Positions 17,101 through 54,055 of a stretch of 64,000 bases of DNA are shown in pieces. Origin of the DNA: Lineus longissimus (taxonomy: Eukaryota > Nemertea > Pilidiophora > Heteronemertea > Lineidae); NCBI RefSeq assembly GCF_910592395.1, contig NC_088308.1, forward strand, positions 248,001-312,000. The letters are read 5' to 3'. The notes below the pieces were generated by a model. The model saw only the letters and a list, made by a program, of their open reading frames with translations. It was not told where the DNA came from and searched no databases. Numbering within the stretch: the first letter of the stretch is position 1; every line of letters starts with the position of its first letter. The translations under genes were made by a program, and so were the position numbers.

Positions 17101-17615
17101 CACTCCAAATCCTAGGGTCCTCTTTATTTTACATATGGAGAATAGGTCCTTGTGGCAATTTAGTTATAAGCAACAGCGCAAGACATACTTCACGGGGTGT
17201 TTAGGTACTAAGCTATCTTTAAAAGCCGTGATTGTATCTTTGATAAAAACAAGACAAAACAGTTTTCCTCTGTCAAGTAATATTGTCTAAGACCTAGCTG
17301 TACTTTTATTCTAATAAGCAGGCAGTTGATTCGTTTTTTAATTAACAATTCCACCTGAGAATTCTAATACCTTCTGCTGATGGTTACGCTGCACTTTATT
17401 CTGAAACAACTGTGCAGATGGTGATGTGCAGGGGTTTCTTGCATCTTCATACAACACACTCGAAGACTTGTCAATATAAAACTGTGGAGGACCATATAAA
17501 CGACGTGTTGCCTGATGACTTTTGTAGAGGAGGCTTGGTCAAACAATGTAAAACCAGCATCGTTTTGACGAGATGATGAATGATGACGAAACACCTCGAT
17601 ATACTTCGTCGCTTC
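17101..17615. other. non-genic stretch downstream of the PAN-module locus
   Basis: No supported gene. A second minus-strand AATAAA (TTTATT at 17396-17401) could be an alternative poly(A) site for the module locus. Confidence 0.4.
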
Positions 17616-17621
17616 TTTATT
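17616..17621 (-). terminator. poly(A) signal of the PAN-module locus
   Basis: Minus-strand AATAAA about 80 nt beyond the TAA at 17702. It supports 17702-17802 as the last exon of the locus. Confidence 0.55.
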
Positions 17622-17701
17622 ATGAATGAATCAGACTGCATGAATTATTACAGAAGTGGATGCCTGAAATAAAGGCAATATACATGTATAGTAAGTCATT
17701 T

Positions 17702-17802
17702 TTAGGCAGGATTGCCATCCCTAGGTGTGTAGATAATTCCTTCTGTTGTGGTCCGATTTTCACCAAGCAACCGTTGACACTGACAGATCGAAATATCTTT
17801 TC
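17702..17802 (-). CDS. candidate terminal exon of the PAN-module locus
   Basis: A good acceptor (TTCTTTCCAG) precedes an exon that begins GA. If spliced after linker 18123-18155 (which ends in T), the junction forms TGA and the exon is non-coding. If spliced directly after domain A12 (which ends in G), it adds 32 residues, including C-Q-C, and ends at TAA 17702-17704. Which form is used cannot be decided from the sequence. Confidence 0.5.
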
Positions 17803-20800
17803 CTGGAAAGAAGATTGATGAGTGTGTAGACATAGCTTTGCAGAGGAAGTTGATCCGTGGTAACATTCAGTACACATGAAACTAGCTACTATCAATAAAC
17901 TCTGAGGTGTCAGCTAATCATTGCGGCAAAAGATGTACAAATTGAGTACATTAATTCATAGGAAAATAAATCTTTTTTTCTGTCATGGCAGAAAATAAAC
18001 AGTGTGTGTTCGTGCGGGGGGGGGGATCCTTTTCTTTAAATACTAAATTATGACAAGCAGTCTTTCTGCATGCGATGGCTATTTTATAAATGCTGATACA
18101 TTGCGTAAAAAGACCTACTTACAGCGGCCGGAGAGGTGAGTGCTTGTTGCCAAACCTGAACAATAGAGACAAATATATATCAATGTATATATCGATGCAG
18201 GTTACCAGATTTGAAAAGTACTAAGATGTCGACGTGACTTGCTCTAGAATCAAAGGCGAACAAATAAAGTAAGGAACATTTCACAAAATGGTTCGTGTCA
18301 GTTATCCAACTCTATTTTCAGAGTAATATTAAGTTATCGGAAGTGATATCATCATTGGACGACTTTACATCTTATGACCATTGCTTGTGAGTTATTAGAA
18401 ATCTTTTAGGAGAGGCTTTGAACTCCCAAGTCGTTATCTTACCTGTACACGGTGGCTTTTTACAAGGTTTGAATGTCTTGTCGTAAGGTTTAGCATCAGC
18501 CTTATCACTCTTTGTTTTGCACAGGGAAATACTGCAATGTTTTGTCTTCTTGAAGAAGTAGGCTCCTGAACAAAGTGTGGTGTGGGCACAAGCTTCTTTG
18601 CAATCATCGTCAGTTTTCACAGTCTTGTGGAATATTGATTCCTTGCCACGAGCTAAATAGAGAACGAGATTGACCGTTTGAGTAAATGCAAGAAAGTGTA
18701 CAAGGAGTGTCTTTTTGTGAAATAGAGTAAGTAACTTTGACCACCACCCAGCCTTCTCCATGTCTCATGTGGACACGGGATTGGTAGACATAACCAATTG
18801 ACCAGTGTGAATTATAAAACGAATTATGACGAGGTGATAATTTCAACATATCTGTTGAAGGGTTGTATTGGACGTCTGTCGTCTGAAAACTTACTCTTGC
18901 ACTTATGCATTCGACCTGCAATAAGAAGAGGAATAATTAGTTATTTGCCTATTCATTCTTTGATTCAATCATTCTTTCCATCCTTCCTAGAATACCGGTT
19001 CTCACCTTGATAAATGGATAACAGTGAAAAGATACGAAATGAAATAACAAAACGAGCCAAAGATTCGGGCGAGATATGATGACTCTCATGACTGTTTAGT
19101 GGCTGCCTTACCAGCAAGTCGATGATTATTATCTACATATACATGTAATCACTGTCTCAGTTTAGCGCAGTTCACGGCAAAGGACCATAGGCCTATGCCC
19201 GCGTGTCGGGGGGGGGGGGGGGACTGTAGTCTCCTAGCTTCGCTGTTAGTAGCCGTCGCTAAATCTTCACATGCTGAGTTTACTGGCTCTCCCAAGATTT
19301 ACTACCATTGACTCCGATGTGAATAATGTGTGCGCTCTCATTCGAGATTGAGTAACCAATGCAGTGTAACAGAGCGCTGCTATGTCGTTTTCTAGGACGA
19401 AACATTGTGTGTTCACCATCACATCTGGTACCTATGATGTCATTTTGAAATGGGAACCTAGGTCTGCAAATCACAAAGCCTGTCTGTAATCACCTCTTGG
19501 GAGGCGCCCAACTTTTCTCTATTACGATCAAACATCAAGGACGAGTGCATGACAAAATGGCTTACTTCTGACTCCACACAATGTATATTCCGTGTGCGAA
19601 AGCTTCGCCATACTGTTGGACTGCCCAAGAGAACTGCATACCAGGTAACAGGCTCCGTTCATCATTACCCATTTGAAACACGTTCCTCCTCCTAGTTTCT
19701 TGCACTCTGCTGCACAGGCGGAGTTTTTCGTGATTGTCTTCGAGTAGAGAACGGATAAAAAGAAGTGTTGGGGACCTGAAGGAGAACCACAAGAACATCA
19801 ATGATATAAACATGGAATCCACTGTGGAATCCACTGTGGAATCCACTGTGGAATCCAGTGTGGAATCCACTGTGGAATCCACTGTGGCATCCACTGTGGC
19901 ATCCACTGTGGCATCCACTGTGGCATCCACTGTGGCATCCACTGTGGCATCCACTGTGGCATCCACTGTGGCATCCACTGTGGCATCCACTGTGGCATCC
20001 ACTGTGGCATCCACTGTGGCATCCACTGTGGCATCCACTGTGGCATCCACTGTGGCATCCACTGTTAACTGATGTGATCAACTTTGTGGGGAAGCTACGC
20101 TCGGCTAAAGGGACTGGTCTTTTTTACCGAATTACCAGAAAAAGCGGATTGTTTTATTAGAAAAACCTTACACCAAAATATCTGCGGATTGTAGCCACTC
20201 TTTTTCTTTTTCTTCCCTTCTACGGCCTTTCCTGAAATAAAGGTATCTGTGTTACGAAAATCTAATGAAGCAGTTTTGATATAACGTACGAATGGGGAAA
20301 TACATGGTTCTATCTCAACGCTAGGTTGATATGGGTAAACATCAATTTAGTGAATGTCCAAAAGGTGCCATGCAGGCCCCACCTGTCGGTTTTGGTGGAA
20401 CCATCCCATGCCTATCTCAAAGGTTTTGTGGCAGATAATACCTTCGAATCAATGACCAAGAAATGAAATTTCTCATAAGAAGTGTTCAATGCTTGCAGTT
20501 GCTATTAACTATATTGAATTTACCATGGCATGGCTTGTGACTGCACTGTTTGAATGCTTTGTCAGCCGGTTTGGGCATCGCCTTTCCCTTCTCCTGGCAG
20601 ACCTTCATAGTACAGAGCTTGTGTGTGGTGAGGTAATATATTCCAGAACAGGCCGATGTCTGAGAACACGTGGACTTGCATTCATCGAGAGCAATCTTCT
20701 TCTTGTTATACACGTGTTCAGTACCTAGATTTAGAAAGATATCAGTTTGTATAGAATTCGACCACGATCTTAGGTTGGGTGGAAACACTGTTGAATCTAC

Positions 20801-23800
20801 GATTCCGCAACCATCGCATGCAGGTTGCCCCCCAACTTAGCAGACCGTATTATAGCTGGCGGTGGGGTTAATCTTAACTCATTGAGAACGGCGAGCCACT
20901 ACATACCCACATTGGCTTCTTTGCTAATATCCGAGTTAATTGTAAACATCTCTGATAGAAGAATTGACTTGAGCAGGTCCTTGTGTTGATCATGAAGGAG
21001 ATTTGCAAAGCAGGGGAAGAACAAAGTCTCCACTGGATCATTAAAAATGAATTTACCCCTCTCAAGAACCCAACTTTACTGTTATGTCGATTTCGTTCTT
21101 GGCAAACGAAGTAGAACAAGAAGGTGTACCATGTGCACTTACCCTTACCACTGCAAACCACATTTCCTGGTAAAGAAAAACGATACACATTCGTACTGAA
21201 TTGAAATTCTGCGTGATAAATTCTACTCTACACGACGATGATATAATTGTCATAAAATCAGATAGGATTAAAATGGTTTTATCCTGTGGTATTCTTGTTG
21301 TGACCTTTTCCCGAAAAAAAAAACCCGATTCAAGTTGATGGAACACTCTCGGTGAACTACAGACAACAAGTATCTGGTTTATCTTATCTTTCCATCATAG
21401 CAGGAAAGTGAAACAGTCTGAACAGACTCACCTAGACCAAGTATTGATGGAACATAAGGGAGTTGAGAGCTGCACCGTCACATCACAAAATAAATCTTGA
21501 GAAACATTCGCATGGTGGAAAACCATCACTTAACTACTCACTGGTACAAAATGTAAACTGCTTCTCTGACATTGTCTTCATTCCGACCAGTTTGGAGCTT
21601 TTTGGGACGGTAAGATGACACAACCCGTCCATCATTGTCCAAGTGCTGCAATGCCCTTTAACACAAAGAGCCTTACAAGCTGATGCAGTGATTGTCTTCT
21701 TAGACTCCAACACACTAAACCAGAAGCTCATTGCACCTATTCAAGAGAGAGGAAGCATATGAGATATGTCACGGTGAATATATTGATTTACTTTCTCCTA
21801 TGATTCACACTGCTTTGTGCAAGTCCCTGTTGGCTAGATGTCACATTTAACATTTTGTCTCACAAAGCTAAATCTCAGGTAAAATCGTGAGTAGACTCCA
21901 CGAGAGCAATTATTTATATGATGAGTACTTTACTTACAGTTAAGTGGTTTGGCCTTTTTCTGAGCTTTTTTCTTCTCTGGCTTTTTCACATTCTTCTTTC
22001 GGGCCTTTTTTTCATCTCTTGGGTGGCCTAAAATAAGATGAATTCATTGATTTAGTATCATTACTTAAACCCCAACACATTATTACTAACATTCCAACAC
22101 TTAAAGGCATATATTTGGCTTGCTCTGGCGTATATGAGTAAAATGCAACACAGATCAACTAAATTAATCCTGTGATTGACCTATATTCATTGACGATGTA
22201 TAATTGCCTTTTAAGTGTTTACCTTGACATGGCTTGTGACTGCATGGCTTGAAAGTCTTATCAGCTGGCTTGGCAACATCCTTACTCCCCTTCTTCTGGC
22301 AAACTCTAATGGTACAAAGCTTCTGCTTGGTAAGGTAGTACATTCCGCTGCAGGTAGCTGTGTTGGAACACGCGGTCTTGCAATGATGGACATTTTTCAT
22401 CTTCTTATGATAGACCTTTTCCAGTCCTTTATTGAAGAATAGTAATGGGTAGTTTGGAAATTAGTAGCAGTTTTTCAATACTCTTTGACTACTAATTGAT
22501 AAATTAGTCAACTAAGAGTCACCGACCAAAGACTGAATTCTCTTCATTGCTGTCTGCCAATATTTGGTATAGCAGTGTATCGTTGTCAACATCGATATGA
22601 GCTTCTTGCTCCTTTGCAAATATGGGAATTTCTATCAGGCTCAGTAGCAACAACCGTAGCCATTTCTATCAGGCTCAGTAGCAACAATCGTAGCCATTTC
22701 TATCAGGCTCAGTAGCAACAATCGTAGCCATTTCTATCAGGCTCAGTAGCAACAATCGTAGCCATTTCTATCAGGCTCAGTAGCAACAACCGTAGCCATT
22801 TCTATCAGGCTCAGTAGCAACAATCGTAGCCATTTCTATCAGGCTCAGTAGCAACAACCGTAGCCATTTCTATCAGGCTCAGTAGCAACAATCGTAGCCA
22901 TTTCTATCAGGCTCAGTAGCAACAACCGTAGCCATTTCTATCAGGCTCAGTAGCAACAATCGTAGCCATTTCTATCAGGCTCAGTAGCAACAATCGTAGC
23001 CATTTCTATCAGGCTCAGTAGCAACAATCGTAGCCATTTCTATCAGGCTCAGTAGCAACAATCGTAGCCATTTCTATCAGGCTCAGTAGCAAAAATCGTA
23101 GCCATTTCTATCAGGCTCAGTAGCAACAATCGTAGCCATTTCTATCAGGCTCAGTAGCAACAATCGTAGCCATTTCTATCAGGCTCAGTAGCAACAATCG
23201 TAGCCATTTCTATCAGGCTCAGTAGCAACAATCGTAGCCATTTCTATCAGGCTCAGTAGCAACAATCGTAGCCATTTCTATCAGGCTCAGTAGCAACAAT
23301 CGTAGCCATTTCTATCAGGCTCAGTAGCAACAATCGTAGCCATTTCTATCAGGCTCAGTAGCAACAACCGTAGCCATTTCTATCAGGCTCAGTAGCAACA
23401 ATCGTAGCCATTTCTATCAGGCTCAGTAGCAACAATCGTAGCCATTTCTATCAGGCTCAGTAGCAACAATCGTAGCCATTTCTATCAGGCTCAGTAGCAA
23501 CAATCGTAGCCATTTCTATCAGGCTCAGTAGCAACAATCGTAGCAGCTTACAACTGCACGAAGGTTGTGTATGACCCAATCGACCATTTTTAAGGTTATA
23601 AGACATAGCCGACATCATGACAAAGTTCGGGGCGACGTAAGTTGAAGTAATGGCAGATTCTACTTGTAGGAGTTACTTCTTTTTTATGCATACACCGCCC
23701 ATCGGGTTGTATTTATTGAAGAAATGTAAGTAATGTTGAACACACATACCTGCGCATGCTAACATTTTTCCTAAAAAAAGGAATATTGTGAAAGATGATT

Positions 23801-23804
23801 TCAT
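17702..23804 (-). CDS. secreted PAN-module protein, downstream transcription unit
   Basis: Model: signal-peptide exon 23750-23804, A10 22223-22426, linker 21938-22027, B10 21542-21736, micro-exon 21143-21166, A11 20524-20724, linker 20172-20231, B11 19566-19775, micro-exon 18895-18915, A12 18443-18652, linker 18123-18155, terminal exon 17702-17802. All junctions are GT-AG and phase 1. The product would be a secreted protein of about 434 aa ending at a TGA formed across the last junction, or longer if the last linker is skipped. The first exon encodes MKSSFTIFLFLGKMLACA, a credible signal peptide, and a TATA box lies about 60 nt upstream. Domains A and B are Cys-rich and PAN/apple-like, with unknown ligand. 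The alternative is that these exons are the 3' part of one large gene starting at 54055. Confidence 0.6.
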
Positions 23805-26800
23805 GCTGTGTGAAGAGCGTGTTTCAGGCTTGGAGAGCTATTGAACGGGAAAACTATATAGACTTATAAAGTAGCACTATCTTCCCTTCGCGAATACTGT
23901 TAAGCACTAAATTTTTTTCAACGCTATTTTTCTGATACGTGGAAAATTTTATAAAAAAGAAAAAAATCTCGATTTTAATTTTTTGGGCAATGATGAAGTC
24001 TCTTTCAGTTTCGGAGGCCACCCTTCCGAATAGTATGATTTCAGTTGTCAACTGATTACTAAGTAATTCATAAACCTACTTGTTTTTAGGGTATTTTAAT
24101 TGGTTAATTCTTTTCTGCTCTATCCTTGTAGTACATGTACCTGATAATGAAGCATAGCGAGGCAACTATCTTTAGTTCTTACCTTTGCAAAATGTGAAGA
24201 GTTTCTTTGTCATTGTCTTCATGCCATTCAACTTGGAGCGATGCTTTGAAACGGTAAGATGACAAAGGTTCGCCATCATTGTCCATCTAAAGCAACGATC
24301 TTTGGAACAGAGAGTCTTGCAATGTGCACTGGTAGTTGTTTTCTTGGATTCAAGCAGATTGAGCATATGAGTCAGCCTACCTTTAAAACAAACAAAACAT
24401 TTCACCCTTCTCACACTGTTAGATGGAACCATAGTCCTTCGGTAGGGCGTTTCGGTTTATCTTTACTCAAATGAATGTAGTGAGAACTTTTGTCACTAAT
24501 TTTTTTCCATCTCTTCAAATTCTCCCTTTTTCTATCAGATTGTTTCTGCAAAGATGTGTTCTTTTAGACCGAGTGAAACGTATTTTCTAACGTCGGCACA
24601 TCCTAATATCGAGGAAATTAACCTCGTTCTCGGCCATCTGCACCATTCTGCACAAGAACGAGGTTGATTTAAAATGGTGATTTGAGTATGATAAAAATAA
24701 CTCACAATTGAGTCTGCTATTCTGCTTGCCACGTCCACCTTTCCTTGTTCCTCTCTTCGCTTGACCTGCGTCGCAAAAGAAAAACATGTTTTGTAGTGGC
24801 GCCACTTATTGCTTGCGAAACAAGTTGAATGCAATATGAGCGATAGAAGATTAGTTTCCCTGGGTCTGATCAGTCTCAAAGAAAAAATAATAATTTGTAG
24901 TACTTCGCTGCAATAGTTGGTCTCAGCCTGCCCCTGCTCTCGCGTCCAGCATCAGTTTAATGTCATAGATGACCAAAGTCAAGAATGAAATAGATTTGAT
25001 GATTTGCGGAGTGAATGATTGGGTCTTACTGACCAAGCTTGGGCCATCTGGACGACCAAACTTTGGTCTATTGATGGTGATTTATTGTTCGACAACCGCC
25101 GCGTTAACTTTTAAAAAAAGCCGCAACATTTTGGATCATTTCCAGCCTTACCTTGACATGGCTTGTGACTGCATGGCTTGAAAGTCTTATCAGCTGGCTT
25201 GGCAACATCCTTACTCCCCCTCTTCTGGCAAACTCTAATGGTACAAAGCTTCTGCTTGGTAAGGTAGTACACTCCGCTGCAGGTAGCTGTTTTGGAACAT
25301 GCGGTCTTGCAATGATGGACATTTTTCATCTTCTTATGATAGACCTTTTCAGTACCTGAGTTTGGAGTGATTGACACCAGCCAAAATGTTTATTAGTGTA
25401 TTTACAGCTACTACAAGACAAGTTTTATTAGATTATAAACTCCACGTGGAAAATACCTTACACTCTAACACTTTCTTGCATTTGATCTTACTGGTCAATA
25501 TGAATGTGCACGTTTAGTTTGAACTACCAGGACGTATAAAAAACACTACAAGAAAGTTCTCCAAATCTCACATCAAAAGTGGCTCTTGATAAAGAATCGT
25601 ACTCACCATGGCAGCGTTTCTTTCCTATCAAGTAGAATTGTAGAAATATCAATACTCTGAGACTTAATATGAGTTTCATTCAGAAACATATCGCGGTATT
25701 GATTGCCCTGTCGAGTGCTTCGCAAAGTCCATTCACTACCAAATCGTCATGTAATCGCAATATCAAAAGTACATATCAAAAATATTCTATCTCTTACTGT
25801 TCAGTGATCTGTAGGTAATGTTTTTTTCTTGATACGCTGAGTAGAATGGTTTGACGTCTTTTTACTTGAAGTTCGACTCTGGAGAACGCACACAAATATT
25901 ACACTTGTTTCAAGGATATAAAGTTGTCAAATAGTCGTCATTGCATTTCCTTCTTACCCGAGCAGAACGTGAATTGTTTCTTCGTCATTGACTTCATACC
26001 GACCAATTTTGACCGTTTCGGAACCGATAGATGACAGAGGCCAGCCATCATGGTCCATTTGCTGCAATGGCCCGTTGTACACAGAGCTTGGCATGCTGCC
26101 GCTGTAGTAGTCTTCTTCGATTCCAACACATGGTACTTCTTACCGGCCTGATGACCTGTGAAAATAAGAAAGCATTCTTTTAGCTTTGATTGGTAATGAA
26201 GCAAAGATTTCAAGATGAAACGGTTGGTCATAAGGGCGTTCTCCTCATTATTTTGTCTTATAGTCACTTGACTATTTAGTGTTTAGTAAAATCAATCTAT
26301 GGAAAAAGTCGCAACCTGATCCAATTTCATCTCGACGTTTATTGTACCTTTGACTATGGAGAACTCGTACTGAAGGTCGGACAAAAGTGACAAAATGATA
26401 TATCAACAATACTCACAACGCGTGAGACCACCTTTCCTTTTGGCCAATCCGCCTTTTTTTCTTGCTCGTCCCGCAGCTTTACCTGTGTCACAAAAGGAAA
26501 ATGTGTTATCATTAGCATATTCGGCCTTCAACTTGATATACCGTGATCCCTGCATGTAATGTTAATTTGTGCAAGTGCAAAAACTGCTTGTGGTTGAACC
26601 TTTTAGTGCACATCTAAGGCAATGATTGTTTGTGCCAGGCTAACCTGTGTTGATTAAAAGGAACAGACTTGGGTCCCAACGACCAGACTTGGCACAGCCA
26701 GACTTTTGTCTAGATATAACGATTGTCTTGAAAGGTGCTGCAATTGGAAAAAAGCCTACATCATTGTGGCTGATCTGCATCTTTACCTTGACATGGCTTG

Positions 26801-44800: not shown

Positions 44801-47800
44801 AATTTTTTCATAAGTTCGAAATTCTGAAAGTTTTCAAAGTCAACATATTTTTGGTGCTGATGATTGATGTTTCTTCATTTTGAGCAGAAAAAAATCAAGT
44901 GAAAAAAATATTTGGACTCAAAATTTTTTTTCATTCGAGACCGGTGGTCACGTTACCGGGGTTGTCGCCGACCGGGGTTCCACTGTATTATGGTCAGCGT
45001 GTACTAACAATTGAGCCGCCTGAAATCCTTGGGCATCTTTGACTTTGACTTCTTGGCAGATTTCTTCGTTGGTGCTTTAGCCCTGCCTATGAAAATGAAG
45101 TTGAAAATTATGGAATTGTATGAGGAAAAACAAAAAAGGGCAAAACTCCAATTTGCTTAATCAGGCAGCTGTGGTTAACAGTTGGGTATCTCAGCATCAT
45201 AGGATATCCCTACTGAAAAAGACCCCCTACGGTTCTCAGAGCAGCCTGCTGTAACTTGGAAGTTCATCCCAATGGATAATGAATGGTCTCTGAGAGTCTG
45301 GAGCTACCATGGGTTTAAGAGAGCCCGTCATTAAAACGGCTAGTTTCTCAAAATGAGCTGTCACTGCATTTCATACCAGTTATGCCAGACTCGTGAGGAA
45401 ATGCGTCCAGACAATATGATGATTCAGTTGCTTTCCTACCTTGGCATGGCTTGTGACTGCAGGGCTTGAAAGTCTTATCCGCTGGCTTTGCAACAGTCTT
45501 ACTGCCCTTCTTCTGGCAAATTCTGATGGTACACACCTTCTTGGCTCTCAGATAGTACAGCCCAGAGCAGGTCGGCGTCTTTAAGCATGCCTTCTTACAA
45601 TCCTGCCACTTTGGCAAAGACTTGTGATAAACGCTCTCGGTGCCTGCGCAAAATAATAAAAAAACAGACAATAACAGTTTGTTTTGTTCGGGTCGACACA
45701 CGAACGCGGGAAGAGGCAAGTGACTGTCTTACAGATAATGAGTCGGCATTAAAAACAAAATGTTTCCGAAGTTTCGCACTTCGACGTGGACTGACTGTTG
45801 TAAATCAATCTCAATTACGTCGAAATACGATAGGCCCAAGAGATATATTGCTAAGCGTAATGTGAACCAATATTTGTAACTAAGAGATAATGATATAGAA
45901 GTCGCCCTGCGACAAATCTTGTTAAAAGAACGGGTGTCTGGATGAAGACTGCCTCCTTTCTGACCTCTCCCTTCAACCAATGAGTACTTTTCTTATTTGT
46001 TTTTGTGTCGTTCGCATGAACTACTCATTCAGGTAACTCTCATTCTAGGTTTTAAAAACATTGACAACCAGGACTGTTTCAAATGAGTTCTGACAACATG
46101 GCTTCTTGAAGTGATCTTTTGCTTTGACGCCAGAGACTCGAACACCAAGTAAAAGTGTGATGGAAGTCGAACTACTGTCGACAATCTAGTCCTTTTTAAA
46201 AGGGATTACGACTCTATCTAAATGCACGTTTTTGTCAAACGCTCGGTTCCGAAAATGTGTCTGCGAATACAGCTTACCTCCTTTACACCCCCTCATGCTT
46301 CCTGCCAGATGAAAAAAAATCATATTCAGAATAATCTTGTTATTGATATTATCACTTCAGTTATTGCCAACACACTAATGAGATATTAGATAAGTGAATG
46401 GTGCATGTTCTATACCTGCTGTCCGTACTCTTGTTTCGATATCTTCTATAATCTCGGTGTGGCTACTTTAAGTGGCACATTGCTTTTGTATCACTGATGG
46501 GTGTCAAATACCATTACTGCCCTCAATGTCTCTGGCATGCAATACATACATTGATATATTTCGCAAAAAAGGACACTGTCTATTAATTCTTACCAAAACA
46601 GAAAGTAAATGCTTTCTTGCTCATGGCGTGCATGCCCTTTACGTGGGCATGTTTTGATTTCGCTGGAACTGTCAAGTGACACAGTCCGGCGATCATCGTC
46701 CATCTCCAGCAATGTTTCTTATCTGTGCACCTGGCCTGACACGCTGCGCTGGTCGTGGTCTTTGATGATTCGAGTATGTGAAACCCTCTGGTAAAACCTA
46801 TTAAGTAATATCACAATACTTGCACGATATCCTATTATTAGAAAATTGACATTCAGATCGAAAATGTATGCTCATTTCTACGTGATGATATAGAATATAT
46901 GTTTCCAGCACCTGAAATGAGAGATGATATCGATACACCAGTTCCCTCTGGTTGTAAAGTTGATTGTCAAGACCGTTTCTATAGACAAGATTGAGCAAAC
47001 TTACATGTTGCTGGTTTCTTCCCTTTTAAACCTGTAAGAAAGTTTTGTTTTTGTCAGTTGCTCGGTATAACTTAGTTTTACAAATCTGGCTTCAGTCAAT
47101 AGTCAGACTTGAAGAGAACCAACCACTATCAAAAGACATTGTCCACGTAATATACAACCTCTTGCGTTCAGGTGTCAGTCTAGGCATGTTATGAGTGGGT
47201 GAAGCGTCGTTCATGTTATGAGTGGGTGAAGCGTCGTTCATGTTATGAGTGGGTGAAGCGTCGGTCATGTTATGAGTGGGTGAAGCGTCGGTCATGTTAT
47301 GAGTGGGTGAAGCGTCGGTCATGTTATGAGTGGGTGAAGCGTCGGTCATGTTATGAGTGGGTGAAGCGTCGGTCATGTTATGAGTGGGTGAAGCGTCGGT
47401 CATGTTATGAGTGGGTGAAGCGTCGGTCATGTTATGAGTGGGTGAAGCGAAGGACGTTCTTGCTTTCTTAAGAAGGGAATGACTCCTTCCCTGTTTAACG
47501 AGGCAAATGAAAGCTTGCTTACCACTGCAAGTCTTGTAACCACACAACTTGAAGGATTTATCGTGTGGGGTTGTTGGAGTCCAGTGGTCATCGTTCTCCC
47601 TACAGAGTAGTAAGCTACAATGCTTCCCAGCATTGATGTAAATCATCGACACACAGAGTGCTGTTTTGGCACAGGCCAACTCGCATTCAGCTTCGCTTTT
47701 GACTTTCTTCTCGTAAACGCTTTTTTTACTCTTTTCTGTTAAGAAATAATGCACGCAATGATATTATCTTAAACGCTGCATATGCTTTAACAAACATGGG

Positions 47801-50800
47801 AATGTGTTATTTTGGTATCACGCTAAGGGTAACTAAGACTACCAAAATATTCGCCGTTTTTACCACCAGTTCATCAAAGTCTTTGTGTGCCTTAACCTTG
47901 CCTTAATGGCCAGTACACCCATGGTCAGTATATGGCCGACACAGGTCCGTTTTCTAAAAAGATGGACCCATTTCTTCGTTTAATCTGCATATCTATACTG
48001 CCTTGTTTGTATAGTAGCAACGAATGGCTCGGACGATTTCAACTGTATGGATTCAGTTATGCTGATCGACATATTGGCAGAGAACAGGCTCCCTGCTTTT
48101 GTTCTAGGTTGGAGAAGTGGTCCAACAATACCATTATCATACCTCTATATCACAGCGTCAGTTTAATTCTTTACTTACTTTTGTATTCGCATTTATGGAC
48201 ATTACCTGAAAAACGGATGCACAGATTGTTACTGAAATACGAATGTTGACCAGTAAGCATCAGAGAACTTAACACCGACCTGAAGCAACATCTTGGTTTA
48301 ATTGTAATCATTGCATATCTCTGTGTTATTTTCTTTTCAAACAACACTCCTACGGCACCCATGTGTCATCACATAAACTCGTGATTGAAGTTTGCTAAAA
48401 AATGACTTGATTGACGGATTAAAAGCAATCGTTCTGGTTCTTTAGAGTCTCCATTTTCGCGACACATTGGTCACGAGGACTGCATGTTTGACTCATGAGA
48501 CTCATGCTACAGAAAATTATTAATACATCCATACCCTGCCAGTGGATAGGGGTCGCTGCGTTTAGGAATTAGGTTACTTACGCTTTTTTGGTCTGCAGTA
48601 ACTAAAATGAAGTTCGTCCACCAATTTAAAACCTTTAAGTGTTTTCGCCCTTGTTGAAACAATCATCGTGCATTCTTTGTTGACCATGGTCCACGAATAG
48701 CACTGTACGTGTGTGCAGGCTCTCTGGCACGCTTTGGGTGTTTTTTTTGCCGATTTATGCAAAACGTATCCCCTAGTTTCGTAACCTGTTGTGAGTAAAG
48801 CAGTAAACGTATGACATATATCATCAATTGTCTGGCGGAGAGGACAGTAATGCTGTGACCAGCTAACCTAACCCTACATGAAGTCAACTTTTTGACCCAT
48901 CGCGTTTAAAGAGACTCCTGTTTGTGATGCAGAGGAATGAAAACAAAAGCAGTATGATCATGGCAGTGTAAATATGGTGCCTTGTACAGCATTTTAAATG
49001 GTATTTGAATCTTCTGTTATGTTGCTACACATGGGTTTATAATAATGTTCCACAGGTCAATATGTCATTGCATTGGGATGCCTGGCTGCTACATGCAGCG
49101 GCAGTGTTATACTTGTCGCACAGAAAAAAACCAGGTATACTTTCGCGAACGGCGCCAGCTTTTAAGGAAATAATGTTCGCTTACAAAAACTTTAGATGCT
49201 CAATCAACAAACTTAATCTTTTATGAAGCAACTGATCAATGTACAAGTTCATCGTAGAAAATCATTCTGGTCTGACTTACATCTCACTTTTCCAGTAACA
49301 GAATTCTTCATCCAACCTAACGTATGAAATCAAGAAGAAAATATGCACGGTTAGATAAACGCTGAAAGTTTTGAGTACTGGTAACCGCCATAACTAAATA
49401 TGACTGATAGAATCAGACGATTATAGCTCTTTTAGTGTTTTTCAAAATGTTATTGTCGATTTCTTCAAATGGACGATCTCAACTACTCTCATAAAAAAAC
49501 CTGTGCGTGGATAATTGGCTCTTCACAAATAAGTACAAAATTTCAAAAGAGAAATGTTTTTACCGTGACAAGGCTTGTGACTACAAGGTTGAAACTTCTT
49601 GTCGGACGGTACACCATCATTCTTATGCGCATGCGCCCTAAGCTGGCATAAGCGTAGAGTACAAAGCTTGCTTGCATGCAAGTAGTACATCCCGGAGCAG
49701 TATGCAGAGTCTTTACACGCGTCCTGACAGTCATCAGCACTCGGCATGGTCTTGTGATACACACTTTCCTTGCCTATAATGAAAAAATAATTGTCGAAAT
49801 AGGTAGTCACGTCATTCTAAATCCCGGTGGTGAAATCTGGCATGACTGTTGCCAAGAATGAATATCGGCTAGTCTTATTTGATTCTTAATTCTGCTGATA
49901 CATAGATTATAAAAACTCAAAATAGATACTGTCTGGCTGGAACTAACACAGAGTACAGAATATCTGCCGAAGATGTCATCCCTATGATCAATACACATGG
50001 CACATGGATTGTGCAAAAATCAACCAATATCTGGGTAACTAGAGTGTCCGCTTCGGAGTCCCGGTGTAGAAGTTTAAAATGTCCTGGGATAGAATGTCCG
50101 GGAAACAATGGATTCTATTATGCGCTTTAATCTCTGAGCTATTGGCGGTCATGGCCTCTATAGAACCAGATAGCGGAATACAATAGGGCCGGACACTTTT
50201 TCCAGGGGGACATTTTCTTCTTTTACACCGACACTCCTCATCCGACACTTCTTCAATGATTATAACAACGCTGGCTGCTCAAGAGTGGTATGGAAGCAAT
50301 GATATATCAGCAACACGATCCCGTCTCCATCTTAAACCAGTTATCTCACTGTGTCTTGATCGTGTACTCGTTTCGAGCAAGGTTTGGCAAAATAAGTTGT
50401 ATCTTTATGTTCAACTCGTCAGCTTAGTTCTGATGCTTTTAAGGCGTCGATGTTGACAAAATCTTTCATCGGTCCTCTTGTTAATCTGATACTTACCGAT
50501 TGACCAGGAACAGTAGATGTTTCCTGTCGGGAAATAAGGGTGAAATAAGTTCCTTTTGGATCATCAGACAGAATTTAAGTGCCGATTATAGTTCCAAATT
50601 GAAATTTAGGAGCGTTTGTTTTACAAGTGCGCCTCTGTGTTCTGTCTCGTCAAAGATTTACAGACCAGCCGATTAGATATGACTTTCGTCAAGCAGTTGT
50701 TCAGGGACGTTTGGTTGGGCGTTTCTTCTCCTAACCCTTCCCAAGCCGCTGTTGCTAGGGTTCTTCTGGCTCTAAGTGAGACTTAATACATTGAATGTAC

Positions 50801-53800
50801 ATCAGTGACACGTTAAAGTGCTTTCTCAGCAGCACTTACCTCTACAGTAAGAATACTGTTTGTTAGACATGGTCTTCATGCCTTTGAGCTTGGACTTCTT
50901 ATTCGTGTTCAAATGGCAGAGTCCACGCATCATGGTCCAGCTGCGGCAATGGTGCTCTTTAGTACACATCGCCTGGCAGGAGGCACTGGTCACGTGCTTT
51001 GCCGATTCATACACATTGAACCATGCACTACCTTTAAAAGGAAAAACAAGCAGAAGTCTCGAATTGATGGGATTTCGTATCCGCTACTTGGAACCAATTA
51101 CTATTTATGAAGAAGGTGCCAGGACAACTAGTCGAAGCATCACGAATAGACACAAATTAAAGTGACATCCAGCCTGATTTTAAGCATTTCCATTGTTGGG
51201 CGCACCTAGAGGTTTGTCAAAATTCTCCATCTAAAATGACAAGCAGTGAATAGGTGACGATGGTGAATAGGTGATGATGTGTCATACACTTGGCCACTGG
51301 ATTTTAAAACTAGCTGATGATGCCACGGTACCATTGACAAACATCACCTTGTCAGTATACTTACAACCAAGCGAAGCGTCATGCGGCGTTCCTAGACGAG
51401 AGGAAAAGCATCAAAGCGTCAGAAATACAGTTGTACTACTACCATAAGAGGCTACTTAAATAAGTGCATGCCCAAGAGAAAATCAAAATCAATGGATTAT
51501 TGCCATAAATCGCTTTGACCTTCCATCAACCACTTTACGTACACATACGATACTCCGGTGTGGACGTGTTGCACTTGACCTAAGAGGTAAGAAGCAGCTG
51601 TGGTATAGTGGCTCGCGGTGGAATAGTGACTAGAGGTCAAGAAGTCCCTTGTTCGATCCCAAATGTGGGCGTAAGACTCTTGGCAGGTACCTTCATTGGA
51701 CTTGCCCAGCTCCACCCAGGTGCATAACCGATATCCGTCAGAAGTGCTTAGGTTGTAGCGCTGGTTGAGCAGTTCATATAACGTCTACTGAAAGGTTTCA
51801 GTGTAGGCCGGTGTTAAAGTGTTAAGTCGAATCATAACTTATATATCGAAGTTGATATCTCCCTATAAAACAACAACTGTTCTTACCAGTACACGGTTTA
51901 TGGCTGCAGGGTAGGAAGGTGCCGTCCGCTGGTTTGGCCACCGAGTGGTCAGTCTTGAACTTACACAACCTCAGGCTACACAGTTTATGGACTTGGATGT
52001 AGTAAGCTGCGACGCAGTACTTGGTTTTGGAACAAGCTTCCTCGCAGTCTTCGATAGCATGGACAGTCTTGTGAAATTTCGTCTCAAGTCCAGTTTCTGT
52101 AAAATGCGAATTGGAATGAGTCATATCAAAAATCTCATCTGGCCCTCCTTAATAATTATTAATCATTTAAAGTCCGCCAATGTTAGACCGAGTACGATGA
52201 ATAGAAACACCTCAATGTATGGAAGATGATCTTACTTTTAGCATCATGTTATGTAACTCAAATAGTCAAAAAATGAACTGTATGTTCTTTTGCAGCGCTT
52301 TATATTGTGTCCATTAATTCACAGTCATTCATTCGTTTGTTATACGGTTTGAAAAACTCACTTGCGTTACATCTGTACATGTGGTAAGCTCTTCTTGCTG
52401 CAAAGACAAAGATTTACATAATACTGGACAACAAGAAAAGAGGGAGGTAGCGCCAGCTCTTGGAACACATTGGGCAGGGGATTTAACTAGCCAGGTGGAT
52501 TATACCATTGCTTGCCACCATTGAACGGAAAGTAACACGGTACTCATAGAAGATGGACATTCTTCATTCTATATACCAACAAGGTTATTTAGCAAAAACT
52601 CACCAGAGCACCAGAGCTGATAAATATTTAAAAAATCTAACTATATAAAAGTATGCGTAAGATGTCATTTCATCTCATACTTACAGTAACGAGGCTTGCA
52701 AAGTACCGTTCCTTTCATTTGCTTCAACTCTGGCGATGTTGTGTGGCAACGAGCAGTGATGAAACACGTATTGTCCATCAGTGTCCATCTGGTACACTTG
52801 TGTTTGTACTTCACTTTCCCTAGCTTCATGCACAAGGCCTTGCATCCCGTGTTAGTCTTTATCTTGTGGGACTCTAGGACGTTCAACCCTTTCTTGTAAC
52901 CTTGTTATGAAGCGAACAAAATGTTGGTTTGTGGTAAAGATCTACATTCAAAGCCGATATATAGGAAAATTTAGCATTTCCGCACGGTGAGGAATCATCC
53001 CGTATGATTCAGGGATGGATTGATGAGGCATACATGGCTGGCTGGCGCAAGCAATGGCATTAGATCTTGCAATTAATAGTTTGTTATCCTCTCCTTTTCT
53101 AAGATCAGTTTCACATCGGTATTCTCGAAACCATTTTCACAACCCTGGATGTTTGAATAAACGTGGAGGTGTCATTAAGCATATCTTGCGCTGGCGTTTA
53201 ACATTGAAAATGGGTAGAGTTTTATTGTTACAGTGTGCTCTCACCAACATGACCATGTCATCATTCGTATCATTCTATATCTTAGTATTATAACCACTTC
53301 ACGTGGCAGTGTCAGAATCCTGATATTACGCTGCCACTTACATTTCATTTTGTAGCCGGCATCGGCATCCTGCGGCCCTGAGAATGAAATGAAAGCCATC
53401 ATTAGTATGAAGAGACAATTGGGGATATTTCTCGTCAAACAACAGGCAGAACAGTTTGTTCATTTCTATCTATCGACTTTTTTTAGAAAGAACGTTTAAA
53501 GACACACTTTTATGTTCTTGTTAATTTGGGTTAAATATGATGACGACATGTACGAACAGGGTGTGGTTGTTCAAAAGAAGATAACTCTAACGGGATCGTT
53601 AAGTTTTAACGGGCGTTATCTCTTCCAGTTGAGCCCATTAGACTAAAAGCCGAGTTGTAGTTACTGCCAAGTTAACTAACTTGTTTTGAACAACCAAACC
53701 CTGATCGTCAACATGTTGCTGTTTTGTTATATACATGTGTAGTTCCATCTCTTCTATGATATTCATCCTCCGACGAAAGAGGAAGACGATTAAGAATAGA

Positions 53801-54055
53801 AGTTACATGCATCTTCAATGTTATTCCATTGTGAGGAGTAACTTATAACTAAGGTTTAAGCAAGTTGGCGTTTTTGCCAGCTTTTTTATACACTGGATAC
53901 ATGTACGTTATCGACCTCGTGTCACCAGCAACGCAGCTCGACGACTGTTGAAAAACTGGCTTGTGAGGAGAGCAATTGAAATTACCGGGCGTTATGTACT
54001 TACAATATAAAAGGAGCAGGGCCGCAACTATTCCTAAATGTACAATCTTCGTCAT
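17702..54055 (-). CDS. large PAN-module gene, maximal model (50 coding exons)
   Basis: Joining all listed A, B, micro and linker exons from the ATG at 54055 down to linker 18123-18155 keeps one frame. With the TGA formed at the last junction it gives 5916 nt, about 1,971 aa. The predicted protein is a signal peptide, then B-A domain pairs (12 of each) with linkers. A pattern: C-x3-C-x5-C-x11-C-x4-C-x18-C-x4-C; B pattern: split C, then C-x3-C-x4-C-x9-C-x23-C. Both resemble PAN/apple folds that bind proteins or sugars outside cells; the actual ligand is unknown. Internal signal-peptide starts (23804, 25679 and its copies) make it possible that this span is several tandem genes. The exons are well supported; single-transcript connectivity is not. 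Confidence 0.45.
18123..18155 (-). CDS. linker exon after A12
   Basis: 33 nt, phase 1-1, encoding GLATSTHLSGR. It ends in T like all other linkers but is not Lys-rich. It is followed by the terminal exon rather than a B domain. Confidence 0.6.
18443..18652 (-). CDS. PAN-like domain A12 exon
   Basis: 210 nt, phase 1-1. It carries seven Cys in the A pattern (DCKEAC, LCSGAYFF, HCSISLC, PCKKPPC). The acceptor CTATTTAG gives a first codon completed as ACT. Confidence 0.82.
18895..18915 (-). CDS. micro-exon before A12
   Basis: 21 nt encoding SRMHKCK with one Cys. The strong pyrimidine-rich acceptor would read in frame as LIIPLLIAG but is closed by an upstream TAA with no ATG, so it looks like a decayed signal peptide. 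Confidence 0.65.
19566..19775 (-). CDS. PAN-like domain B11 exon (divergent)
   Basis: 210 nt, phase 1-1. It keeps the B-type CFKWVMMNGAC core and the final TLC but has seven Cys including the split one, not six. The donor is A|GTAAGC. Confidence 0.72.
19812..20065. repeat. 12-bp minisatellite, about 21 copies
   Basis: Units of GTGGAATCCACT change to GTGGCATCCACT partway along the array. It lies in the intron between linker 20172-20231 and B11. Each unit contains CCACTGTGG across its border, close to an inverted repeat. Multiple overlapping open frames arise only because the unit length is a multiple of three. Confidence 0.95.
20172..20231 (-). CDS. Lys-rich linker exon before B11
   Basis: 60 nt, phase 1-1, encoding GKAVEGKKKKKSGYNPQIFW. 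It ends in T, so the next B exon starts with a split Cys codon. Confidence 0.7.
20524..20724 (-). CDS. PAN-like domain A11 exon
   Basis: 201 nt, phase 1-1. Seven Cys in the A pattern (ECKSTC, CSGIYYL, LCTMKVC, QCSHKPC). Shortened by one residue in the C5-C6 loop. Confidence 0.86.
21143..21166 (-). CDS. micro-exon before A11 with two possible donors
   Basis: Encodes RNVVCS (18 nt, 21149-21166, donor GTAAGG) or RNVVCSGK (24 nt, donor GTAAGT). Both keep phase 1 and carry one Cys. The donors are 6 nt apart. Confidence 0.6.
21542..21736 (-). CDS. PAN-like domain B10 exon
   Basis: 195 nt, phase 1-1. B pattern with VLESKK, CKALC, HCSTWTMM and FTFC. Six Cys including the split first one. The donor is A|GTGAGT, and read-through reaches TAG after three codons. 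Confidence 0.84.
21938..22027 (-). CDS. longest Lys-rich linker exon, before B10
   Basis: 90 nt, phase 1-1. About 30 residues, 12 of them Lys in the pairs or triplets KKARKK, VKK, EKKK and QKK. Ends in T. Confidence 0.75.
22223..22426 (-). CDS. PAN-like domain A10 exon
   Basis: 204 nt, phase 1-1. Near-identical over most of its length to A7-A9 (KKMKNVHHCKTAC, CSGMYYL, LCTIRVC, PCSHKPC) but starts GLEKVYHK instead of GTEKVYHK. Confidence 0.87.
22629..23545. repeat. 34-bp minisatellite, about 27 copies
   Basis: Unit built on CATTTCTATCAGGCTCAGTA followed by GCAACAATCGTAGC, with a C/T variant (AACCGT/AATCGT). It lies in the intron after the signal-peptide exon at 23750. The copies are perfect direct repeats with no spacers. 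Confidence 0.95.
23750..23804 (-). CDS. signal-peptide exon (also usable as a micro-exon)
   Basis: ATG at 23804 opens MKSSFTIFLFLGKMLACA, a Lys followed by a hydrophobic run, with donor GTATGT in phase 1. The same DNA contains a strong acceptor (CCTTTTTTTAG), which would make a 21-nt micro-exon 23750-23770 encoding GKMLACA with one Cys. The upstream TATA box favours use as a first exon. Confidence 0.68.
23863..23870 (-). promoter_or_regulatory. TATA box for the downstream PAN-module unit
   Basis: Minus strand reads TTTATAAG, with a second TATATAG at 23854-23860. The ATG at 23804 is about 60 nt away, leaving room for a start site near 23835 and a leader of about 30 nt. Confidence 0.5.
24183..24380 (-). 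CDS. PAN-like domain B9 exon
   Basis: 198 nt, phase 1-1. Six Cys including the split one (LLESKKTTT, HCKTLC, RCFRWTMM, LCHLTV, FTFC). The donor is G|GTAAGA; unspliced read-through stops after about three codons. Confidence 0.85.
24706..24765 (-). CDS. basic linker exon before B9
   Basis: 60 nt, phase 1-1, encoding GQAKRGTRKGGRGKQNSRLN. Homologous in position and style to the 66-nt linkers of the duplicated segments. Confidence 0.74.
25152..25355 (-). CDS. PAN-like domain A9 exon
   Basis: 204 nt, phase 1-1, starting GTEKVYHKKM. First of the near-identical 1.64-kb copies. Seven Cys. Confidence 0.88.
25607..25679 (-). CDS. signal-peptide exon / KKRCH micro-exon, copy 1
   Basis: ATG at 25679 opens MKLILSLRVLIFLQFYLIG followed by KKRCH, phase-1 donor GTGAGT. 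The final 18 nt (25607-25624), after an internal TAG acceptor, would serve as a micro-exon with one Cys. No TATA box is evident upstream. Confidence 0.6.
25958..26155 (-). CDS. PAN-like domain B8 exon
   Basis: 198 nt, phase 1-1. VLESKKTTTAAACQALC, HCSKWTMM and QFTFC. No poly(A) signal occurs between its donor and the next exon, so it is unlikely to be terminal. Confidence 0.87.
26417..26482 (-). CDS. basic linker exon before B8
   Basis: 66 nt, phase 1-1. Begins GKAAGRARKKGG and continues LAKRKGGLTR, with two dibasic sites. Ends in T. Confidence 0.76.
26787..26990 (-). CDS. PAN-like domain A8 exon
   Basis: 204 nt, phase 1-1. Differs from A9 mainly in SNTATCSGMYY versus SKTATCSGVYY and in CQKKRS. 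Confidence 0.88.
27242..27314 (-). CDS. signal-peptide exon / KKRCH micro-exon, copy 2
   Basis: Same arrangement as copy 1, beginning MKLIVSL. Micro-exon portion 27242-27259. Confidence 0.58.
27594..27791 (-). CDS. PAN-like domain B7 exon
   Basis: 198 nt. Protein identical or nearly identical to B8. Confidence 0.87.
28056..28121 (-). CDS. basic linker exon before B7
   Basis: 66 nt, a variant of the 26417 linker with GGSARRKGGLTH in its second half. Confidence 0.76.
28426..28629 (-). CDS. PAN-like domain A7 exon
   Basis: 204 nt. Protein matches A9 (SKTATCSGVYY, CQKRGSK), which suggests gene conversion or the order of duplication. Confidence 0.88.
28881..28953 (-). CDS. signal-peptide exon / KKRCH micro-exon, copy 3
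   Basis: Begins MKLILSL as in copy 1. Micro-exon portion 28881-28898. Confidence 0.58.
29233..29430 (-). CDS. PAN-like domain B6 exon
   Basis: 198 nt. Same as B8 except HCSRWTMM in place of HCSKWTMM. Confidence 0.87.
29694..29759 (-). CDS. basic linker exon before B6
   Basis: 66 nt, same sequence class as the 26417 linker (GGLAKRKGGLTR). Confidence 0.76.
30064..30267 (-). CDS. PAN-like domain A6 exon
   Basis: 204 nt. Its first part is distinct (GTENVYHKMMSKVDDCRTAC), then it becomes A8-like. Lies just left of the satellite array. Confidence 0.87.
30324..41291. repeat. satellite array, eight units of about 1.36 kb plus a partial ninth
   Basis: Unit starts: 30324, 31683, 32876, 34243, 35601, 36969, 38327, 39685 and 41044 (partial). 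Lengths are about 1358 bp for one subtype and 1367-1368 for the other; the second unit has a deletion (1193 bp). The subtypes differ near the CTTATACCAACTTACACC versus CTTATACACGCACC segment. The array interrupts an intron whose uninterrupted versions exist in the sister copies, with CTA shared at both junctions. Each unit holds one tRNA-like segment on the minus strand and a TATAAAAAG box on the plus strand. No protein function is supported. Confidence 0.93.
31449..31523 (-). mobile_element. tRNA-like (SINE head) segment, one per satellite unit
   Basis: The minus strand has a B box GGGTTCGACCCCCGG with a four-pair T-arm and a D-arm-like GACGGTTCAGAGC, followed by a T-rich tract that could end RNA polymerase III transcription. 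The acceptor arms do not pair well, so it is a tRNA relic rather than a tRNA gene. Equivalent segments occur in the other seven units. Confidence 0.55.
41484..41556 (-). CDS. signal-peptide exon / KKRCH micro-exon, copy 4
   Basis: Same as the copies at 25607-28881, separated from its A domain (A6) by the satellite array. Begins MKLIVSL. Micro-exon portion 41484-41501. Confidence 0.58.
41836..42033 (-). CDS. PAN-like domain B5 exon
   Basis: 198 nt, protein matches B7/B8. Continues the duplicated segment to the right of the satellite. Confidence 0.87.
42298..42363 (-). CDS. basic linker exon before B5
   Basis: 66 nt, GKAAGRARKKGG class ending GGLTH. Ends in T. Confidence 0.76.
42668..42871 (-). 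CDS. PAN-like domain A5 exon (mosaic)
   Basis: 204 nt, phase 1-1. The first half is unlike the duplicated copies (FHKTIPNDKDCKFACWKTPKC, YYIKAKK), the second half matches them (CQKKGSKDVAKP, PCSHKPC). The switch suggests recombination or conversion inside the exon. Confidence 0.86.
43367..43387 (-). CDS. micro-exon before A5
   Basis: 21 nt, GHIAHCR, one Cys. An in-frame TAA just upstream excludes use as a signal-peptide start. Acceptor TGTATTTTAG, donor GTAAGT. Confidence 0.62.
43715..43909 (-). CDS. PAN-like domain B4 exon
   Basis: 195 nt, phase 1-1. KVLESTKTTTTPACKALC, HCIRWTMM and FIFC. Six Cys including the split one. Confidence 0.86.
44072..44265. repeat. 18-bp minisatellite (CTCTCCGAGCATCTGTCAC family)
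   Basis: Irregular tandem copies, some with the extension CAATGGCCAACTAC. Lies in the intron between linker 45009-45086 and B4. Confidence 0.8.
44734..44988. mobile_element. non-autonomous DNA transposon (MITE-like)
   Basis: Ends are inverted: AGTGGAACCCCGGT at the left and ACCGGGGTTCCACT at the right (14 bp perfect), with a further inverted pair AACCCCGGTAAC/GTTACCGGGGTT. The interior has two near-copies of AAAATATTTGGACT. About 255 bp, no ORF. Confidence 0.65.
45009..45086 (-). CDS. Lys-rich linker exon before B4
   Basis: 78 nt, phase 1-1. 26 residues with PTKKSAKKSKSKMPK in the middle. Donor GTTAGT. Ends in T. Confidence 0.72.
45440..45643 (-). CDS. PAN-like domain A4 exon
   Basis: 204 nt, phase 1-1. 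GTESVYHKSLPKWQDCKKAC, CSGLYYL, VCTIRIC, PCSHKPC. Seven Cys. Confidence 0.87.
46278..46301 (-). CDS. micro-exon before A4
   Basis: 24 nt, GSMRGCKG, one Cys. An in-frame ATG upstream would add MIFFHLA, a weak signal-peptide candidate. Confidence 0.6.
46594..46797 (-). CDS. PAN-like domain B3 exon
   Basis: 204 nt, phase 1-1. Begins with split Cys then FTRGFHILESSKTTT; core HCWRWTMIAGLCHLTV; ends FTFC. Confidence 0.84.
47005..47031 (-). CDS. linker exon before B3
   Basis: 27 nt, GLKGKKPAT, ends in T. Good acceptor (TTTCTTACAG) and donor (GTAAGT). Confidence 0.66.
47188..47448. repeat. 27-bp minisatellite, about 9.5 copies
   Basis: Unit CATGTTATGAGTGGGTGAAG plus CGTCGGT, in the intron just after A3. 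On the minus strand it stays in frame with A3 if the intron is retained and would add a nine-residue repeat ASPTHNMTD. Confidence 0.95.
47523..47735 (-). CDS. PAN-like domain A3 exon
   Basis: 213 nt, phase 1-1. Divergent (AECELACAKTALC, HCSLLLC, CGYKTC) but keeps seven Cys. The frame continues through the donor into the 27-bp array. Confidence 0.83.
48179..48205 (-). CDS. micro-exon before A3
   Basis: 27 nt, GNVHKCEYK, one Cys. Acceptor CGTTTTTCAG. Confidence 0.62.
48582..48785 (-). CDS. PAN-like domain B2 exon
   Basis: 204 nt, phase 1-1. ACQRAC, QCYSWTMVNKEC and HFSYC. Six Cys including the split one. Donor C|GTAAGT. Confidence 0.83.
49281..49316 (-). CDS. linker exon before B2
   Basis: 36 nt, GWMKNSVTGKVR, ends in T. 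The acceptor is only weakly pyrimidine-rich. Confidence 0.6.
49564..49773 (-). CDS. PAN-like domain A2 exon
   Basis: 210 nt, phase 1-1. GKESVYHKTMPSADDCQDAC, CSGMYYL, LCTLRLC and PCSHKPC. The C5-C6 loop is longer and His-rich (RAHAHKNDG). Confidence 0.86.
50497..50523 (-). CDS. micro-exon before A2
   Basis: 27 nt, GNIYCSWSI, one Cys. Donor GTAAGT. Confidence 0.6.
50840..51031 (-). CDS. PAN-like domain B1 exon
   Basis: 192 nt, phase 1-1. SCQAMC, HCRSWTMMRGLCHLNT and YSYC. Six Cys including the split one. Confidence 0.84.
51365..51391 (-). CDS. linker exon before B1
   Basis: 27 nt, GTPHDASLG, ends in T. Not Lys-rich. Confidence 0.6.
51887..52096 (-). CDS. PAN-like domain A1 exon
   Basis: 210 nt, phase 1-1. 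DCEEACSKTKYC, LCSLRLC and PCSHKPC. Seven Cys. Confidence 0.85.
52362..52397 (-). CDS. micro-exon before A1
   Basis: 36 nt, SRRAYHMYRCNA, one Cys. Acceptor TTTGTCTTTGCAG, donor GTGAGT. Confidence 0.64.
52685..52900 (-). CDS. PAN-like domain B0 exon
   Basis: 216 nt, phase 1-1. Most 5' domain. NVLESHKIKT, GCKALC, KCTRWTLMDNTC. It has eight Cys with the split one, two more than other B exons, and an insertion KLGKVKYKH. Confidence 0.82.
53342..53377 (-). CDS. second exon of the large PAN-module gene
   Basis: 36 nt, phase 1-1, WPQDADAGYKMK, ends in T like the linkers. Signal-peptide cleavage probably falls within or just before this segment (ADAG). Confidence 0.68.
54004..54055 (-). CDS. signal-peptide first exon of the PAN-module locus
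   Basis: ATG at 54055 in ACCATGA context encodes MTKIVHLGIVAALLLLY, a clear signal peptide, then donor T|GTAAGT in phase 1, matching the next exon. Confidence 0.75.

Follow-up and report, generated by a model that had tools for sequence, protein, structure and literature searches.

Plasma prekallikrein and factor XI, in which four apple domains precede a protease, carry their PAN/apple domains in tandem, as does the locus described here. A second point of comparison is saratin, which we take to be a leech PAN protein that binds collagen. Toxoplasma P104 likewise holds many PAN domains; the study describing it (PMC3261864) gives the spacing CX3CX5CX11C for the PAN/apple domains of P104 and TgMIC4 and reports that cell adhesion by the N-terminal part of P104, which has two such domains, occurs through the glycosaminoglycan chondroitin sulphate. 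PAN domains have also been suggested as mediators of protein or carbohydrate contacts (PMC9249922).

The window analysed here is a 64,000-nucleotide stretch of the Lineus longissimus assembly GCF_910592395.1 (contig NC_088308.1, positions 248,001 to 312,000 of the forward strand), and coordinates below count from its first base. A first-pass annotation of this DNA had described a 36-kb locus of about 50 exons in which a B exon, a micro-exon, an A exon, and a linker recurred twelve times in unbroken order, with GT-AG junctions and phase 1-1 exons. Joining 50 exons from 54055 to 17702 bore out this order and covered exactly that extent, with the correction that the gene lies on the minus strand. 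The joined frame stays open throughout its 5,997 nt of coding sequence (stop included), for a predicted protein of 1,998 residues. The twelve B exons and twelve A exons follow one another in strict alternation. Each B-to-A interval was assigned a micro-exon of 18 to 36 nt with one cysteine (12/12 modules), and a linker exon was placed between A and the next B at 11/11 positions, with a comparable exon ahead of B1. All 49 introns are GT-AG. Every one of the 48 internal exons has a length divisible by three and is in phase 1-1; the end exons, at 52 nt (first) and 101 nt (last), are not multiples of three, as expected. Judged from these exons, the locus looks able to act as one large gene with a predicted secreted product of twelve disulphide-rich pairs of PAN-type or near-PAN domains. 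Its features, in order of transcription, are as follows.

54004-54055, minus: exon 1, start codon and signal-peptide-like MTKIVHLGIVAALLLLY, donor in phase 1
53342-53377, minus: exon L0, N-terminal stretch ahead of B1, final T
52685-52900, minus: B1 exon, PAN-like
52362-52397, minus: micro-exon 1, placement less certain
51887-52096, minus: A1 exon, PAN
51365-51391, minus: linker 1, not basic, less certain
50840-51031, minus: B2 exon, PAN-like
50497-50523, minus: micro-exon 2
49564-49773, minus: A2 exon, PAN, above Pfam cut-off
49281-49316, minus: linker 2
48582-48785, minus: B3 exon, PAN-like
48179-48205, minus: micro-exon 3
47523-47735, minus: A3 exon, PAN
47005-47031, minus: linker 3
46594-46797, minus: B4 exon, PAN-like
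46278-46301, minus: micro-exon 4
45440-45643, minus: A4 exon, PAN
45009-45086, minus: linker 4, basic, splice score modest
43715-43909, minus: B5 exon, PAN-like
43367-43387, minus: micro-exon 5
42668-42871, minus: A5 exon, PAN; final ~80 nt equal A6, first ~100 nt differ
42298-42363, minus: linker 5, basic
41836-42033, minus: B6 exon, PAN-like
41484-41501, minus: micro-exon 6
30322-41291, no strand: tandem repeat of ~1,358 bp, ~8 copies, in the micro-exon 6/A6 intron
30064-30267, minus: A6 exon, PAN
29694-29759, minus: linker 6, basic
29233-29430, minus: B7 exon, PAN-like
28881-28898, minus: micro-exon 7
28426-28629, minus: A7 exon, PAN
28056-28121, minus: linker 7, basic
27594-27791, minus: B8 exon, PAN-like
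27242-27259, minus: micro-exon 8
26787-26990, minus: A8 exon, PAN
26417-26482, minus: linker 8, basic
25958-26155, minus: B9 exon, PAN-like
25607-25624, minus: micro-exon 9
25152-25355, minus: A9 exon, PAN
24706-24765, minus: linker 9, basic
24183-24380, minus: B10 exon, PAN-like
23750-23770, minus: micro-exon 10
22223-22426, minus: A10 exon, PAN
21938-22027, minus: linker 10, basic
21542-21736, minus: B11 exon, PAN-like
21143-21166, minus: micro-exon 11
20524-20724, minus: A11 exon, PAN
20172-20246, minus: linker 11, basic
19566-19775, minus: B12 exon, PAN-like
18895-18915, minus: micro-exon 12
18443-18652, minus: A12 exon, PAN
18123-18155, minus: possible alternative exon, linker-12-like, final T, outside the 50-exon model
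17702-17802, minus: last exon, stop codon and one N-glycosylation sequon
17616-17621, minus: AATAAA polyadenylation-like signal

The placement of the short exons was compared with chance by applying splice scores, trained on the 24 domain exons only, to dinucleotide-shuffled copies of the introns that separate domain exons (22 of 23, all but the 11.5-kb one). The best micro-exon-like score of the real sequence was reached in no more than 2 of 100 shuffles in 11/11 introns from B to A, and the best linker-like score in no more than 1 of 100 in 9 of the 11 introns from A to B, with the remaining two at 5 and 7 of 100; the length, one-cysteine, and final-T conditions behind these counts were derived from the same data, and the tests are not all independent, since modules 6 to 9 are near-copies of one another. 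The weakest placements are micro-exon 1, linker 1, and linker 4. For micro-exon 1, the best candidate in the intron is not the one in the model; this rival scores 9.7 versus 8.7, but would leave an intron of 48 nt.

Comparison among the domain exons points to selection on the encoded protein. Mismatch between exons by codon position was 0.30, 0.25, and 0.49 for A and 0.37, 0.34, and 0.56 for B. Each domain type offers 66 pairs, of which 29 were usable for A, with a median dN/dS of 0.21, and 21 for B, with a median of 0.17; every usable pair lay below 1. The 37 A and 45 B pairs excluded were saturated, zero, or undefined, and A7 and A8, for example, had a dS of 0 and a dN of 0.025. Purifying selection at a median of about 0.2 supports the view that the exons are coding.

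The A exon is the more readily recognized of the two domain types. Seven cysteines are invariant in A exons, or eight when the micro-exon cysteine is counted, and the second to fifth are spaced CX3CX5CX11C in all 12, a pattern that arose in 38 of 20,000 residue-shuffled versions of A5. The Pfam family PAN_1 (PF00024) matched 11/12 A exons at E ≤ 0.1; against its curated cut-off of 21.4 bits, A2 lies above (22.1) and A1, A4, A5, A7, and A12 lie below. Residues 1 to 977 of the model, taken as a whole, scored 29.8 bits against the same cut-off, and no family besides PAN_1 rose above its cut-off in this part of the protein, the rest having been scanned as single domains only. Other Pfam families match A weakly, such as KIAA0319_N in 7/12 exons. 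Among solved structures, the A profile found saratin first (PDB 2k13, E value of only 0.0044), with weaker rows that include microneme proteins; with the micro-exon added, the saratin E value was 0.012, and no clear gain in score resulted. The structure model of the A5 exon (pLDDT of 86) has three strands and one helix. Foldseek and VIA-align searches with one A and one B exon model, both made without the N-terminal piece, gave no PAN entry among the best 50 of each and listed generic alpha/beta folds.

B exons diverge from this pattern. The CX3CX5CX11C core occurs in 0/12, and 10/12 show CX3CX4-5CX9C instead. Six cysteines are invariant in B, including one encoded by a codon split between exons (9 distinct sequences among the 12 aligned). 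PAN_1 matched 2/12 B exons at E ≤ 1, with a best E value of 0.00059, and its scores for B2 and B4 (19.2 and 13.7 bits) fall under the 21.4-bit cut-off. A search of solved structures with the B profile placed the PAN domain of microneme protein 5 first (E = 0.0005), the other rows being weak and unrelated, and direct comparison of the A and B profiles was weak (probability, 4.3%; E = 0.0095). Because the cysteine spacing and the PAN_1 and solved-structure matches differ in this way, our call from the two profiles is that A is a PAN domain and B a diverged, PAN-like domain. Profile comparison with the PAN/apple families, proposed as a check in the first-pass annotation, thus matched PAN_1 in 11/12 A exons, with A2 the one shown above the cut-off, and left B mostly undetected. 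The broader claim that the locus encodes PAN-type domains is supported. Each module, with two domain exons and a micro-exon, resolves to two domains of this type.

The split codon lies at the border between linker and B. The final base is T in all 11 linkers and in the exon before B1, and all B exons begin with GT, so that the first B cysteine is assembled across the splice junction as a TGT codon at 12/12 junctions. The micro-exon cysteine sits 16 to 20 residues ahead of the next A cysteine, and together with the C-terminal cysteine of A it is invariant (9 distinct sequences among the 12 aligned), which makes the two a candidate outer first/sixth pair. Counted by module, cysteines number 14 in 10/12 and 15 in 2/12. 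The simplest reading is that the split-codon and micro-exon cysteines would be the first cysteines of the B and A PAN domains, giving a six-cysteine PAN-like B whose first codon for cysteine is divided over the linker/B junction and an eight-cysteine PAN domain A to which the micro-exon would supply the first. The disulphides predicted on this basis would join the first B cysteine to the sixth, the second to the fifth, and the third to the fourth, and A would have these three pairs and one more. A separate functional role for the micro-exon was considered and set aside on cysteine count and position, in favor of its providing the first cysteine of A.

The predicted chain is long and strongly basic. 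Lysine and arginine together number 420 against 97 aspartate and glutamate residues (net charge, +323), lysine alone makes up 17% (337/1,998), and the protein has 172 cysteines and a single N-glycosylation sequon. Calculated from residue 19 onward, its pI would be 9.9 and its mass 221 kDa. A simple hydropathy scan gave 1.57 at the hydrophobic N terminus and a second, moderate peak of 1.35 at residue 451, in A3. An earlier suggestion that the locus might encode a very large, possibly secreted protein agrees with the size and with the secretion-like start of the model. The accompanying description of the linkers as lysine rich stands for linkers 4 to 11, with net charges of +5 to +11, but not for linkers 1 to 3, which are short, not clearly lysine rich, and have net charges of −1, +3, and +3.

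The basic chain, the contacts attributed to PAN domains, and the adhesion of P104 together lead us, by analogy, to favor a glycan binder in mucus or matrix. We give about even credence to the proposal that one gene encodes a secreted, multivalent, polycationic protein of ~221 kDa with twelve PAN modules that would bind polyanionic glycans. Basic PAN surfaces and basic spacers would hold such glycans, which could be an acidic mucus polysaccharide or matrix glycosaminoglycans, and avidity would rise with module number. Against this, the high lysine content could serve other ends.

One alternative is processing. In a polyprotein precursor, proteases would cut the basic linkers and free a dozen small secreted proteins of two PAN domains each, an arrangement with which the near-constant cysteine count per module would agree. 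A [KR]R pair is present in linkers 4 to 9, or 6 of the 11 between-module linkers, but 5 of the 11 lack one, and comparable basic pairs occur inside the domains, so that no clear cut site is marked. Furin-type processing of all linkers is unsupported, as the motif R-x-[KR]-R was found in 0/11. We regard release of separate two-domain proteins as unlikely.

The lysine content could also reflect a structural component of the cuticle, a lining, or the extracellular matrix, cross-linked through lysine and with no specific glycan ligand. Repeated modules and 17% lysine would suit such a material; disulphide-rich domains, however, suggest defined folds over purely structural filler, and we consider this role quite improbable.

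Exon symmetry raises a further alternative, a splice-generated repertoire that would diversify the protein by the inclusion or omission of domains or modules. Phase 1-1 in 48/48 internal exons is consistent with this, and the first-pass annotation had proposed that any exon could be skipped. The reading frame is indeed kept, but single skips usually harm the product. Loss of B alone creates a junction stop codon in 9/12 cases, loss of a linker alone turns the first B cysteine into glycine in 11/12, loss of a micro-exon removes one cysteine (with a stop in 1/12), and loss of A alone would strand one unpaired micro-exon cysteine. Paired skips depend on which exons are joined. Skipping A with its linker replaces the B cysteine by glycine or serine in 11/11 cases and skipping B with its micro-exon gives a stop in 3/12, while linker plus B gives a stop in 0/12 and micro-exon plus A in 1/11. 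Removal of a whole module (B, micro-exon, A, and linker) retains the cysteine in 11/11, and four-exon losses in the other three registers give a stop in 1, 1, and 0 of 11.

These junction outcomes, with their stops and lost cysteines, led us to reject free single-exon skipping; they indicate that the clean units of loss are domains, as exon pairs, and modules, not single exons. Judged at the junctions, domain-wise or module-wise variation would be possible and free exon-wise variation unlikely. The sequence at 18155-18123 scores well as an exon, and when it is spliced to the last exon, an immediate stop follows, so it may provide a shorter, alternative C terminus (GLATSTHLSGR) or be the relic of a further module. 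That one plausible alternative C-terminal exon and the mostly clean skips of domain pairs and whole modules speak for a splice repertoire, but lone-exon skips of B, linker, or micro-exon are usually damaging, and because modules 6 to 9 are nearly identical, choice among them would add little. A locus built to diversify its product by splicing is, in our judgment, decidedly improbable. The split cysteine offers a clear, testable case in which symmetric exons do not imply freely skippable exons.

Duplication of modules within the locus is recent. Modules 6 to 9 are near-copies, with A6 ~10% different, and for this reason the twelve modules are not independent. Three units at 25.1 to 30.3 kb are ~97% identical, and a fourth matching stretch lies at 41.3 to 42.8 kb. 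Of 200 nt compared between A5 and A6, the last 80 are identical, whereas the first 100 agree at only 10 to 13 of 20 positions per block. Such a pattern suggests that recombination broke within the exon, leaving a chimeric A exon, and module number may have been recently altered by unequal recombination. The near-identical modules and the chimeric A exon make the locus suited to following the evolution of module number.

The ~1,358-bp array between micro-exon 6 and A6 contains no match to an A or B domain, the array having been compared within the window. Further tandem arrays occur at 62331-64000 (~75 bp), 22628-23544 (~34 bp), 15966-16882 (~97 bp), 11345-12768 (~89 bp), 47185-47449 (~27 bp), and 19813-20065 (~12 bp). 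Other open frames in the window include two on the minus strand, at 58940-60019 and 60348-61331 (360 and 328 residues), that match rhodopsin-type 7tm_1 receptors and, at 74.6% identity over 929 bp, form a tandem receptor pair. On the plus strand, a 761-residue frame at 5797-8079 has a weak Ion_trans match under the Pfam cut-off and is possibly a piece of a channel gene.

Across the genome, an A query gave at least 13 matches, 12 in the window and one on contig 5, and a B query gave at least 11, all in the window, where 12 B exons are present. The contig-5 match, at about 14.13 Mb, belongs to an incomplete duplicate of the gene's 3' end (window 17512-19144) in pieces 92 to 97% identical. The A12-like exon of this copy differs by a six-base insertion, seven replacement changes, and two silent ones. 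Its exons (90.5 to 97.0% identity) show no more conservation than its introns (93.0 to 97.2%). The copy retains an open A exon and intact splice dinucleotides. We infer a drifting fragment from this pattern of identity. A stretch of ~170 bp at 50063-50229 is also found twice near the contig-5 copy at 79 to 85% identity and is probably a dispersed repeat. Although the drifting look of this 3'-end copy fits a decaying or unexpressed array with open exons as leftovers, 50 exons joined without a stop, GT-AG at 49/49 introns, and dN/dS of about 0.2 make that account of the main locus very improbable.

In the protein database searched, no homologue was found at E ≤ 1 (1 and 124 candidates) or E ≤ 0.1 (3,382 candidates), and Rfam gave no match at gathering scores. 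No description of the gene was found among the literature matches listed, and in papers on nemertean toxins and mucus, the sole match to "PAN" or "apple" as whole words was an apple-snail reference. If expressed and spliced as modelled, the gene would encode a PAN protein that is both very long and very basic, with no homologue in the database searched. A fuller proposal, which we hold only tentatively, is a lineage-restricted giant polycationic PAN concatemer that might serve as a cationic cross-linker of the acidic mucus of the worm. Its module number would have been changing recently through recombination, and the splice-assembled first cysteine of each B domain would restrict clean gain or loss to whole domains or modules, as opposed to single exons.

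Compared with known systems, the A exons share with the PAN/apple superfamily the leading Pfam match, the core spacing, and the strand/helix model. They differ from it in an extra cysteine pair, and B differs in its other spacing and in lying mostly below Pfam detection. Saratin, the best structural match to A, is a chain of 103 residues, compared with 24 domains in the worm model. Unlike prekallikrein and factor XI, with their protease, the first 977 residues here show PAN_1 alone above cut-off. P104 has ten PAN/apple domains versus 24 here, and the available part of its description (PMC3261864) does not mention alternating types with basic linkers; no descent from either protein to the other is claimed. 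The PAN domain type is thus known, and what appears unusual in this sequence is the long, regular build together with its splicing constraints.
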